From positions 1 to 64,000 of the forward strand of contig NZ_BCFK01000004.1 in assembly GCF_001417815.1 (NCBI RefSeq): DNA of 64,000 nucleotides. Reading direction: 5' to 3'. This DNA is from Bifidobacterium aesculapii (GTDB taxonomy: Bacteria > Actinomycetota > Actinomycetes > Actinomycetales > Bifidobacteriaceae). Below the pieces are notes generated by a model. The model was not told the origin of the DNA, did no database searches, and saw nothing but the letters and a program-made list of their open reading frames with translations. The position numbers and the translations under genes are program-made. Below are positions 9,772 to 56,617 of the stretch, piece after piece; position 1 is the stretch's first letter, and each line of letters starts with the position of its first letter.

Positions 9772-10590
9772 TCAGATCACGCGGAACGCGTCGTCGTGGC
9801 GCGTCAGGTTCAGGCCGGCGTTGCGCAGCTTGCGGTCGAGCGTGTAGAGCGCGTTCCTGATCAGGCCCTCCTCGGTGAAATAGCCGCCGATGCTGTGCTG
9901 CAGTTCATCCAATCCGACGAATCGCCCGTTCGCCTCCACCAGCGCCTTCAACACGTCGTACTCCAACCGGGAAAGCGGCATCGGGCGGTGGGTGCTCGCA
10001 TAATACGCCTTGCGGTTCGCCAGATCCAAGGTGAGGTCTCCGCGGATGAGCATCGACTTCGCGCCAAGACCCGTGGATTCGCGCGACAGCATCTCGACAT
10101 AGGCGAGCAGTTCCGTATCCGAGAACGGCATGCGCAGAATGGCGTCCGGCCGCGGTTCCGTGGACTGGGTCTTCGCTTCGTCCGCATCGGTGGAAGCCTG
10201 AACATGGCCGGCATCTTGCACAGGTCCGCCGCCTTGCTTCTCACGCGCCCCTGTTCCGGCGGATGCGGTCATGGCAGAGTCGTCCGTGGCGGCCGACGTG
10301 TCTTGTGCTCCGGAGATATCGAACCGGGCTTTTCGCAACAGCGTGGTCGTGGCGAACAGCAACGTGCGCGGATGGGGTGACACGGCTTCGATCTGGGTAA
10401 GCAGCGAGGACGAATCGATGACGACGACATCGAACGGCTCATCGGTGTTGTGCAACGCATGGCCGACGGCCGTGCCGAACGCGTTGACCAATTCGGGTTC
10501 CATACAGGTCGCGGCATACCCGGCACGGGTGAGGGTGCCATCGACGGCACGGGACAACGCCACATCTCCAACAGCCACCAGAAGTCTCAT
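9772..10590 (-). CDS. Atypical OmpR-type winged-helix regulator with degenerate receiver
   Basis: 272 residues. The N-terminus (1-90) looks like a receiver domain: it begins MRLLVAVGD and keeps DVVVIDSSS, with an aspartate at the phospho-acceptor position, but the usual acidic pair is reduced to one Asp. A low-complexity linker (about 95-145) follows, then an OmpR/PhoB-type winged helix with PLSRLEYDVLKALVEANGRF and a C-terminal RNALYTLDRKLRNAG helix. GGGAGG precedes the ATG at 10590. No histidine kinase is adjacent, so it may work without phosphorylation. It lies next to the 21-bp-periodic arrays, which makes it a candidate to bind them; this is speculation. Confidence 0.75.
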   Translation of the reverse strand: MRLLVAVGDVALSRAVDGTLTRAGYAATCMEPELVNAFGTAVGHALHNTDEPFDVVVIDSSSLLTQIEAVSPHPRTLLFATTTLLRKARFDISGAQDTSAATDDSAMTASAGTGAREKQGGGPVQDAGHVQASTDADEAKTQSTEPRPDAILRMPFSDTELLAYVEMLSRESTGLGAKSMLIRGDLTLDLANRKAYYASTHRPMPLSRLEYDVLKALVEANGRFVGLDELQHSIGGYFTEEGLIRNALYTLDRKLRNAGLNLTRHDDAFRVI

Positions 10591-10687: not shown

Positions 10688-10905
10688 TATGCGCATAGAT
10701 GCCGCACCCATGCGCATGGGATGCATGATGCCGGCGGCGCTGGAGACGTACGCGCCGCATGTCGCCGCACCCATGCGCATGGGACGCCGCACGAGTGTGA
10801 TGCTGTATCGGCTTCTGCGCAGTCTGCTCGATGACCTGCGCGATACGCGCGTGAACCTGTACGATTCGTATGCGAACCTGCGCAGTGTGCCTGCGAACCT
10901 GCGCA
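10688..10905 (+). repeat. 21-bp-periodic array, arm A
   Basis: GCGCA-type cores recur in one 21-bp register: 10691, 10712, 10775, 10817, 10838 (GCGCG), 10880 and 10901, with degenerate positions between. The distal half carries ACCTG immediately before the core at 10834, 10855, 10876 and 10897, exactly 21 bp apart. The proximal half carries the perfect palindrome CCCATGCGCATGGG at 10707-10720 and 10770-10783, 63 bp apart (three periods). No convincing gene covers it. The 21-bp spacing equals two helical turns and also seven codons. Confidence 0.75.
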
Positions 10906-11021
10906 CAGGGGTGCTGAAGAACGCCGGTTCCCAGAGGCCGTGTCGGAAGACGGAGCATTGGAATATCAAGGAAACAACGATGCCTGTATGACGGATTGCC
11001 GACCGTGCTACTCGACTCCTA

Positions 11022-11115
11022 TGCGCAGGTTGCGCGTCTGATCGCGCAGGTTGAGTGCTCGACTGCGCAGGTTGCCTCCGATATCGTGCAGGTTGCATGT
11101 CTGATTGCGCAGGTT
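11022..11115 (-). repeat. 21-bp-periodic array, arm B (inverted relative to arm A)
   Basis: Five copies of GCGCAGGTT or close variants have CAGGT at 11026, 11047, 11068, 11089 and 11110, all exactly 21 bp apart. This is the reverse complement of the AACCTGCGC motif of arm A, so the two arrays face each other across about 115 bp. Read on the minus strand, arm B would encode N-L-R heptads, as arm A does on the plus strand; neither reading forms a convincing gene. Confidence 0.75.
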
Positions 11116-11227: not shown

Positions 11228-11635
11228 ATGCTCGATTTCAGCAGCGCTTCGTTCACCAAGATGGACCACGTCGGTGTTGAGGATGCGGCGGTGACGCTTG
11301 ACGGTCTGCTGCTCGACGGCGAGACGATACGCTACGCATACAAGGGCGCACGCAATTGGGTGGTGTTCACCGACCGCCGTCTCATCGTCATCACCGTACA
11401 GGGGATGAGCGGCAAGAGAAGGGACTACACCACGCTGCCGTACGCGAGCACCCATGCGGCCAGCGTGGAGACGACCGGCGGTTTCGATGTGGATGCCAAA
11501 ATGGATCTGTGGTTCGCCGATCTGGGATTCGCCATGCTCGGTGGTCTGGCCGCACCGTGCAGGATCCGTCTCGAGTTCGCGCCCGGCATCGACGTGCGCG
11601 AACTCGAACGGTTCGTCGTCGGCAAGATGCTCTAG
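11228..11635 (+). CDS. Small PH-like domain protein
   Basis: 135 residues. The core LLLDGETIRYAYKGARNWVV, then FTDRRLIVITVQGMSGKRRDY and an alternating strand pattern, fits a bacterial pleckstrin-homology-like (bPH) domain: conserved ANWVVFTDRRL-type strands and a C-terminal amphipathic helix (DVRELERFVVGKML). Bacterial PH domains commonly form oligomeric rings, but ligands are mostly unknown. The ATG at 11228 follows a GGAAGGG site. It is the first gene of a same-strand cluster that continues with a short ORF, a J-domain protein, a HIRAN-like protein and a Sel1 protein. Confidence 0.65.
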   Translation: MLDFSSASFTKMDHVGVEDAAVTLDGLLLDGETIRYAYKGARNWVVFTDRRLIVITVQGMSGKRRDYTTLPYASTHAASVETTGGFDVDAKMDLWFADLGFAMLGGLAAPCRIRLEFAPGIDVRELERFVVGKML

Positions 11636-56172: not shown

Positions 56173-56200
56173 ATGTCGAGTTGTCTGAACAAGGCAACAT

Positions 56201-56274
56201 GCGCCGGTAGCCCAGCGGATTAGAGCAGCTGACTACGGATCAGCAGGTCGCAGGTTCGAATCCTGTCCGGCGCA
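56201..56274 (+). tRNA. tRNA-Arg (ACG)
   Basis: 74 bases. Acceptor GCGCCGG pairs with CCGGCGC; anticodon stem GCTGA/TCAGC with loop CTACGGA, anticodon ACG; T-arm CAGGTTCGAATCCTG. CCA is not encoded. Type 1 acceptor. Confidence 0.96.
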
Positions 56275-56310
56275 CTCCTCGTTCCGCGCGAGGTAAACAA
56301 CAAGCGGATC

Positions 56311-56384
56311 GCGCGAGTAGCCCAGCGGATTAGAGCAGCTGACTACGGATCAGCAGGTCGCAGGTTCGAATCCTGTCTCGCGCA
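56311..56384 (+). tRNA. tRNA-Arg (ACG)
   Basis: Same body as the first tRNA, but acceptor GCGCGAG pairs with CTCGCGC (type 2). Confidence 0.96.
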
Positions 56385-56428
56385 CCCGGTATGAAACCAT
56401 TCGTACCGCAACAACCGAATATCGGTTT

Positions 56429-56502
56429 GCGCCGGTAGCCCAGCGGATTAGAGCAGCTGACTACGGATCAGCAGGTCGCAGGTTCGAATCCTGTCCGGCG
56501 CA
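56429..56502 (+). tRNA. tRNA-Arg (ACG)
   Basis: Identical to 56201-56274 (type 1 acceptor), within the tandem duplication. Confidence 0.96.
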
Positions 56503-56538
56503 CTCCTCGTTCCGCGCGAGGTAAACAACAAGCGGATC

Positions 56539-56612
56539 GCGCGAGTAGCCCAGCGGATTAGAGCAGCTGACTACGGATCAGCAGGTCGCAGGTTCGAATC
56601 CTGTCTCGCGCA
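56539..56612 (+). tRNA. tRNA-Arg (ACG)
   Basis: Identical to 56311-56384 (type 2 acceptor), within the tandem duplication. Confidence 0.96.
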
Positions 56613-56617
56613 CGGCG

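Follow-up and report, generated by a model that had tools for sequence, protein, structure and literature searches.

A dispersed, two-armed and 21-bp-phased putative protein-binding DNA element in Bifidobacterium aesculapii and two related species

Introduction

What are two opposed arrays of a short motif, each advancing in steps of exactly 21 bp, doing in a gene-free region of a bifidobacterial chromosome? The arrays lie at positions 10690-11115 of the window, by which we mean the whole 64,000-nucleotide stretch analysed here (Bifidobacterium aesculapii, assembly GCF_001417815.1, contig NZ_BCFK01000004.1, positions 1 to 64,000). A preliminary description based on the letters of the window had proposed cooperative protein binding along one face of the DNA, as in an iteron, a centromere-like site or a multi-site operator, with the adjacent winged-helix regulator as a candidate binder and a repeat of seven codons as the alternative. 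Our analysis suggests that the window array is probably, though by no means certainly, one copy of a dispersed, opposed-arm, putative protein-binding DNA element. Below, G000 denotes the genome of the window, G100 B. stellenboschense DSM 23968 and G037 a third carrier species, and L numbers denote loci.

Results

The arrays in the window

Both opposed 21-bp arrays were confirmed in window 10690-11115, where they have the following parts.

10690-10795, unstranded: decayed outer left arm; the TGCGCA lattice is kept at 10690, 10711 and 10774 and lost at 10732, 10753 and 10795
10707-10720 and 10770-10783: two CCCATGCGCATGGG palindromes within the decayed outer left arm, on the 21-bp lattice
10812-10908, minus strand: left array of five units at 21-bp steps, AACCTGCGCA type with one TGTACG variant, GCAGGTT side outward
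10914-10920, minus strand: left end motif CTGAAGA (TCTTCAG in half-element orientation), at a fixed distance from the innermost unit in the half-element alignment
10903-11024, unstranded: core, 122 bp between the innermost units, centre ± 61 bp
10960-10967, unstranded: centre GGAATATC, a 6/8 match to GGAATTCC, midpoint between 10963 and 10964
11008-11013, plus strand: right end-motif position, where the variant CTACTC replaces CTTCAG
11022-11115, plus strand: right array of five TGCGCAGGTT-type units at 21-bp steps

The right-array units start at 11022, 11043, 11064, 11085 and 11106 and read TGCGCAGGTT, CGCGCAGGTT, TGCGCAGGTT, CGTGCAGGTT and TGCGCAGGTT, respectively. On the left, exact TGCGCA occupies 6 of the 11 lattice points, and the variants TGCGCG and TGTACG stand at 10837 and 10858. 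Six TGCGCA in the same phase within 600 bp compare with at most two in 5000 base shuffles, and GCGCAGGTT-N12-GCGCAGGTT occurs three times in the window versus never in 100 dinucleotide shuffles. The exact phasing claimed in the preliminary description is thus borne out by the unit coordinates and the shuffles, and the two palindromes that it had placed in the same register do fall on the left-arm lattice. A free palindrome search did not pick out the centre at 10960-10967. When the window's own DNA was compared with 29 genomes in search of an empty site, no match spanned the array locus.

Recurrence of the array across the genome

The phased pair GCAGGTT-N14-GCAGGTT was found 97 times in G000 (58 forward, 39 reverse), and the reversed control was not found at all. 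The pairs group into 33 loci including the window, and a looser pattern added two more, so that the genome holds at least 35 array loci; the idea of a single local site, be it an operator, an iteron or a centromere, is therefore not supported. Both arms were recognised by one, looser rule in 27 of the 33 loci; the two added loci also show both arms. By this looser rule one arm was missing in 7 of 36 loci (L012, L026, L029, L031, L038, L039 and L176), among which L012, L026, L029 and L031 show both arms by eye, partly weak, and L038 and L039 are truncated by a contig end. Wherever both arms were recognised their order was constant, with AACCTGC on the left and GCAGGTT on the right, and each arm had two to eight units.

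A profile of 194 units consists of RAYYGCGCAGGTTSG plus a weakly conserved spacer, the GCAGGTT columns being inflated by the choice of units with exactly that motif; among 308 G000 units taken at a looser score, the core was conserved at 0.82-0.98 per column. At low-information positions the agreement was 0.407 between adjacent units, 0.454 between units two apart and 0.369 between units of different loci. The low spacer agreement of neighbours suggests that the arrays are mostly not recent single-unit duplications, the spacer diverging around a conserved motif.

Other repeats were noted near some arrays. Several copies of the 132-bp family described below have, outside their 21-bp arrays, a second, degenerate tandem repeat of about 23-27 bp, seen by eye. 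It was noted in L035 (3080-3185), where Tandem Repeats Finder does not report it, and similar stretches flank on the outside the side A arrays of L014, L019, L034 and L037. The heptanucleotide CCTGTTG is repeated in tandem upstream of the array in L326 of G037 (about 1360-1420), possibly as a slippage tract.

Because the two arrays are mutually inverted, we considered whether they might pair in a transcript as a long interrupted hairpin, a notion to which the end motifs of one group of loci (the 132-bp family described below) add some partial complementarity by eye. The left and right spacers of the same locus were, however, less alike (identity 0.393) than in shuffled pairings (0.429; 28 loci), so that the arms show no locus-specific complementarity, and a search of Rfam with 16 loci, the window not among them, matched only three tRNAs, all outside the elements. 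A structured RNA is thus extremely unlikely.

Conserved layout of arms, end motifs and centre

Half-elements were extracted from the loci, and 32 hand-chosen ones of the 59 align without gaps over 86 columns. Read outward, they contain a CTTCAG-like motif (with variants such as CTACTC), 8 nt, TGCGCAGGTT and then units of 21 bp each. The full layout, common to G000 and the two other species, is an outward 21-bp array, a CTTCAG-like end motif, a core, a second end motif and a second array; the core often holds a GGAATTCC-like centre, and both the gaps and the distances from centre to array fall mostly on helical-turn steps.

The gap between the arms measured 120-122 or 131-133 bp in 25 of 29 loci under the looser rule, the remaining gaps being 89, 110, 163 and 234 bp. 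When a strict end-motif rule was applied to 66 loci of the three genomes, both arms were found in 17, the other 49 having one or both end motifs missing within range. By this rule the gap was 120 bp in L018, L021, L024, L033, L321, L172, L217, L222 and L227, 131 bp in L011, L030, L040, L322, L327 and L323, 122 bp in the window and 234 bp in L219, a locus within an ATPase gene. The two main values, 120 and 131 bp, are one helical turn apart, though cores that were compared look unrelated.

The position of the centre follows a similar rule. Of 21 hand-chosen cores with both arms clear, 15 (one of them by a tie) had their best GGAATTCC match at 60, 61 or 71 bp from each arm, versus 5.5% after shuffling; these distances were fixed after the data had been viewed, and L013 had its inner left unit placed by eye. 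In L171 the two distances were 60 and 50. A wider scan tried 41 loci, with approximate centres supplied by hand, the 132-bp family represented by L022 alone and orthologous loci that are not independent; 9 had no centre matching at 6/8 or better, 5 were ambiguous, including the window, which is therefore unscored there, and 27 were scored. The phase of the array relative to the centre was confident in 39 of 54 halves, with 31 at 16-19 and 8 at 7-10 (of 21) and none elsewhere, so that the two clusters are about one helical turn apart. Self-complementarity also peaks at the exact midpoint of the core (0.391 versus 0.155-0.319 at shifted centres), and most sides in G037 have 49-51, 60 or 70-72 among their two best centre distances.

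Arrays between and within genes

By the gene calls of a simple custom script, most loci are intergenic, and the neighbouring genes may be tandem (as at L010), convergent (L020) or divergent (the window). Four loci of G000 lie inside genes, which encode a P-type ATPase (L023), an FtsE-type ATPase (L029), TrmD (L031) and a CAAX-protease-like protein (L033). In L012 the only overlap is with a reading-frame start that is itself doubtful. The in-gene arrays leave the reading frames open.

The P-type ATPase allows carriers and non-carriers to be compared. In each of the three carriers the same two loops contain arrays, which flank a conserved stretch with GERIP and TGES, and none of the six aligned non-carriers (G099, G040, G070, G016, G510 and G056) has arrays there; the right loop of G056 does contain a short insertion of unrelated sequence. 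The alignment comprises 9 of 11 sequences, since in G020 and G038 the gene was matched and no frame passed the filter; G511 and G098 gave no match. In FtsE, arrays were found in G000 and G037 and none was recognised in G100. These comparisons imply that the arrays were added around pre-existing sequence.

The in-gene copies also bear on the view that the arrays are parts or remnants of a protein with seven-residue repeats, which the preliminary description had kept as its alternative. A step of 21 bp does equal seven codons, and several arrays are translated within real genes; yet most loci are intergenic, the host proteins are mutually unrelated, and AACCTGC is read at frame offsets 0, 2, 0, 2 and 1 in five genes of G000 and G100, with differences between arms as well. 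What the loci share is a DNA motif and not a peptide, and the differing frames imply a shared constraint on DNA. With no single conserved reading frame, coding heptads are refuted as a general explanation, and the probability that we leave to them is negligible. The in-gene copies rather suggest a DNA-level constraint that is able to add several seven-residue repeats to P-type and FtsE-type ATPases.

Distribution among species and spelling of the unit

A search of other Bifidobacterium genomes for the 21-bp unit, which the preliminary description had proposed together with a comparison of flanking genes, identified carriers in 3 of 112 genomes, namely G000, B. stellenboschense (G100) and G037. 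The skeleton AACNNNGCANGTT-N8-AACNNNGCANGTT, with at most two mismatches, matched 13 of the 112 genomes, with 92 matches in G000, 23 in G100, 9 in G037 and no more than 2 in any other, and controls gave at most 1. With stricter filters, the half-element profile matched 20 of the 112 (67 in G000, 26 in G100, 8 in G037 and 1-2 in the others). Across the phylum, the skeleton at no more than one mismatch was found in 1 of 296 genomes, G000 itself, and the unit pattern of G000 in 37 of 396, with 166 matches in G000 and at most 3 elsewhere. All these scans catch arrays near the known spellings, and arrays spelled otherwise could be missed. In B. stellenboschense, NZ_JGZP01000014.1 carries an array with the same spacings. 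Three phased GCAGGTT units occur in at least 115 stretches of named genomes, 6 of which are phased on both strands; among the matches listed, only L115 of B. stellenboschense has the left-then-right order of clusters, and the other five are interleaved or otherwise ordered, so that the GCAGGTT unit alone is not diagnostic. The same three-unit pattern gave 40 raw matches in a scan of viral contigs.

The unit is spelled differently in each carrier, as AACCTGCGCAGTT in G000, AAC[CG]TGCATGGTT in B. stellenboschense and, by eye, AACGTGCGGAGTT in G037. The central four letters among 209 G000 units are CGCA in 90, CGCG in 62 (152 units together) and TGCA in 18, and among 70 G100 units CATG in 30, TATG in 12 and CACG in 10 (52 together). 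The spelling can be followed at shared sites. In the P-type ATPase, nine G000 units have CGCG, CGCA, CGTG or CACG, four G100 units CATG, TATG or CAGT, and two G037 units CGGG; in the interval between the aldolase and ATP-binding cassette (ABC) genes, seven of eight G000 units have GCA or GCG, and the five G100 units have TATG, CATG or TACG. The spelling is clearly different at these two shared sites and mixed at two more. Such species-dependent spelling would arise from a binding protein with changing specificity, with gene conversion as the alternative.

The 21-bp lattice, the helical-turn steps from centre to array, the opposed arms and this species-dependent spelling together support phased multi-site protein binding, the part of the binding-site proposal that stands.

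A family of homologous copies

Sixteen loci, in both orientations, share a homologous core of 132-133 bp, with a mean pairwise identity of 0.76 (range 0.58-0.95). Their array spacers are homologous in order when gains and losses of units are allowed, with a same-side best-match identity of 0.60-0.79 versus 0.52-0.59 outside the family. The homologous cores and ordered spacers indicate that whole elements were copied.

This raises the question of whether all loci are insertions of a mobile element resembling a miniature inverted-repeat transposable element (MITE), in which the arrays would be sites for a transposase or recombinase acting in trans and the core would be filler. Besides the family, the recognition of the element in only 3 of 112 species would fit such an origin, as would the spacing of the winged-helix and DnaJ-like genes, which are separated by about 140 bp in G040 and by 1231 bp, with the array and a bPH-domain gene, in the window. 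However, other loci have unrelated cores and yet show the same gap classes, and what separates the arms in the P-type ATPase and FtsE is native protein sequence, the arrays lying outside it. Moreover, the aldolase-ABC interval holds a family core of 132 bp in G000 and a core of 120 bp in B. stellenboschense, where one more gene is called; conversion through the arrays may perhaps replace one core by another at an old site. With the outer ends of the 16 family copies side by side, no common terminus or obvious target duplication was seen, by eye only. A phage or plasmid origin was also considered and is not supported by the one family element searched (L022:2900-3330), which matched none of 50,697 phage and 72,556 plasmid records. 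On balance we consider a mobile element unlikely, although it is a rival to be taken seriously.

MITE-like sequences of another kind were encountered in G038, where L313, L314 and L315 (centres at about 382-389) are three inverted repeats of about 200 bp, unrelated to the arrays, with a AACGGTTCTCAATAAGAAAGGTGCGAG-like sequence, its reverse complement and GCCCGGAATTCCGGGC in the middle.

The neighbouring winged-helix protein

One neighbouring gene belongs to the context of the window array and was judged to be outside the element.

9772-10590, minus strand: winged-helix-like protein of 272 amino acids

A Pfam scan of this protein gave no match. If it were the regulator that binds the arrays, they would be its operators, and each of the three carriers does have an array near the winged-helix gene. 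The arrays nevertheless stand on different sides of the gene and at different distances, namely 228 bp upstream in the window and about 1.1-1.3 kb downstream, with one called gene between, in G037 and G100. The protein was matched in 35 of 112 species, 32 of which have no recognised arrays; between G037 and G100 it is 98% identical, though the units differ; and at least 34 other array loci lie away from the gene. The winged-helix protein is therefore unlikely to be the array-binder that the preliminary description had suggested, and the arrays are very unlikely to be its operators. Since every carrier has an array near this gene, some secondary link between the two may exist.

Two features of the surroundings were noted. 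In the window, a bPH-domain gene (11228-11635) lies between the array and the DnaJ-like gene, and the corresponding G040 interval of about 140 bp has neither the array nor this gene. In G100 (L334:1175-4494) and G037 (L335:9550-12907), a four-gene block adjoins the winged-helix gene and encodes an HTH_34 protein, an ABC ATPase and two proteins without a Pfam match; no such block was seen in the stretches examined of G040 and G070 or in the first 24 kb of the window.

Discussion

Proposed mechanism and points against it

We propose that an oligomerising DNA-binding protein would occupy sites of about 13 bp two helical turns apart and so line one face of each arm, and that a second protein or dimer at the centre would bend the core, so that the arms could meet as a loop. 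Whole-turn changes of the gap would be tolerated because the proposed bend brings the arms together as a loop. The specificity of the array-binder may have drifted between species, with the arrays following by co-evolution. As to function, our guess is that a chromosome-structuring or anchoring site is to be preferred over a classical operator, since intergenic loci occur whichever way the flanking genes are oriented and others fall within unrelated genes.

Several observations weigh against the reading as a dispersed protein-binding element. Units two apart are more alike than neighbours, which makes duplication by pairs of units possible, and the 16 loci with homologous cores and array spacers resemble a spreading repeat. 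The best centre match was off the expected distances in 6 of the 21 cores, and a free dyad search scored the cores at 7-9 of 12, when shuffled cores mostly reach 6-8; given these weak palindrome scores, the centre rests on motif and position. Distances in G037 are less clear, several sides favouring 79-80 or 91-94, and the ATPase copies have a native core of 234 bp that is off the usual phase (0.29 turn). The spelling rule is also imperfect, as only 10 skeleton units pass in G037 and are mixed, and units in the G100 genes for the CAAX protease (L172) and an FtsX-like protein (L176) are mixed as well (for example CGGA, TGCG and CGCA). The occurrence in only three of 112 species means that the element is not an essential housekeeping site, and the structural role is weakly suggested by dispersal and indifference to gene context.

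Comparison with known systems

According to the available excerpt of one study (PMC2817692), repetitive extragenic palindromes (REP) and bacterial interspersed mosaic elements (BIME) are dispersed repeats in opposed orientation bound by several proteins. The element described here resembles them in its dispersed, opposed repeats and putative multi-protein binding, but differs in its 21-bp-stepped arrays with about 2-8 copies per arm, its preferred arm gaps and its in-frame copies within genes. Palindromic units of 20-40 bp, as in REP and BIME, were not what we found; the units are sites of about 13 bp in direct arrays of 21 bp.

Direct-repeat arrays with cooperative binding and two arms about a central region are known from plasmid centromeres, such as R1 parC with ParR and P1 parS with IHF, and P1 parS reportedly tolerates whole helical turns. 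Unlike these, the present arrays occupy tens of chromosomal loci and have inverted arms, and a Pfam scan of 27 proteins, encoded by neighbouring or host genes, assigned none to a rep or par family. Iteron origins have direct repeats near two helical turns; here the arms are opposed, the loci are many, and the one family element searched was unmatched among plasmids. Transposon ends (Tn7, Mu) and prokaryotic MITEs contain multiple phased protein sites, and the many homologous copies of the 132-133-bp family are a likeness to MITEs, but the other loci have unrelated cores, the coding copies have native sequence between the arms, and a terminal inverted repeat or target duplication was not recognised by eye. 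FtsK-orienting polar sequences (KOPS) and matS are architectural motifs dispersed genome-wide and tolerated inside genes; they are single short sites, whereas the present element has paired arrays. Arrays of clustered regularly interspaced short palindromic repeats (CRISPR) have near-identical repeats of 23-50 bp with unique spacers, in contrast to the period of 21 bp, site of about 13 bp, spacer of 8 bp and opposed arms found here; cas genes were not searched for. On the features compared, none of REP/BIME, MITE, iteron or centromere, CRISPR, structured RNA and coding repeat appears to fit fully.

It is possible, if just short of probable, that these loci represent a new class of bacterial chromosomal element, a two-armed nucleoprotein scaffold with opposed two-turn arrays about a centre that is re-spelled genome-wide as its binder changes specificity and can be written in frame into genes on either side of conserved coding sequence. 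No description of such an element was found among the listed titles and opening lines of abstracts in open-licence PubMed Central. If the proposal is true, a few bifidobacteria hold tens of large phased protein-docking sites for which no description was found, and the co-evolution of a DNA-binding protein and its sites becomes directly testable. The three carriers, with some shared loci that differ in spelling, form a natural experiment in which the binder can be sought by co-variation.

Other observation

Elsewhere in the window, a tRNA-like sequence forms part of an exact tandem duplication of 228 bp at positions 56200-56613.
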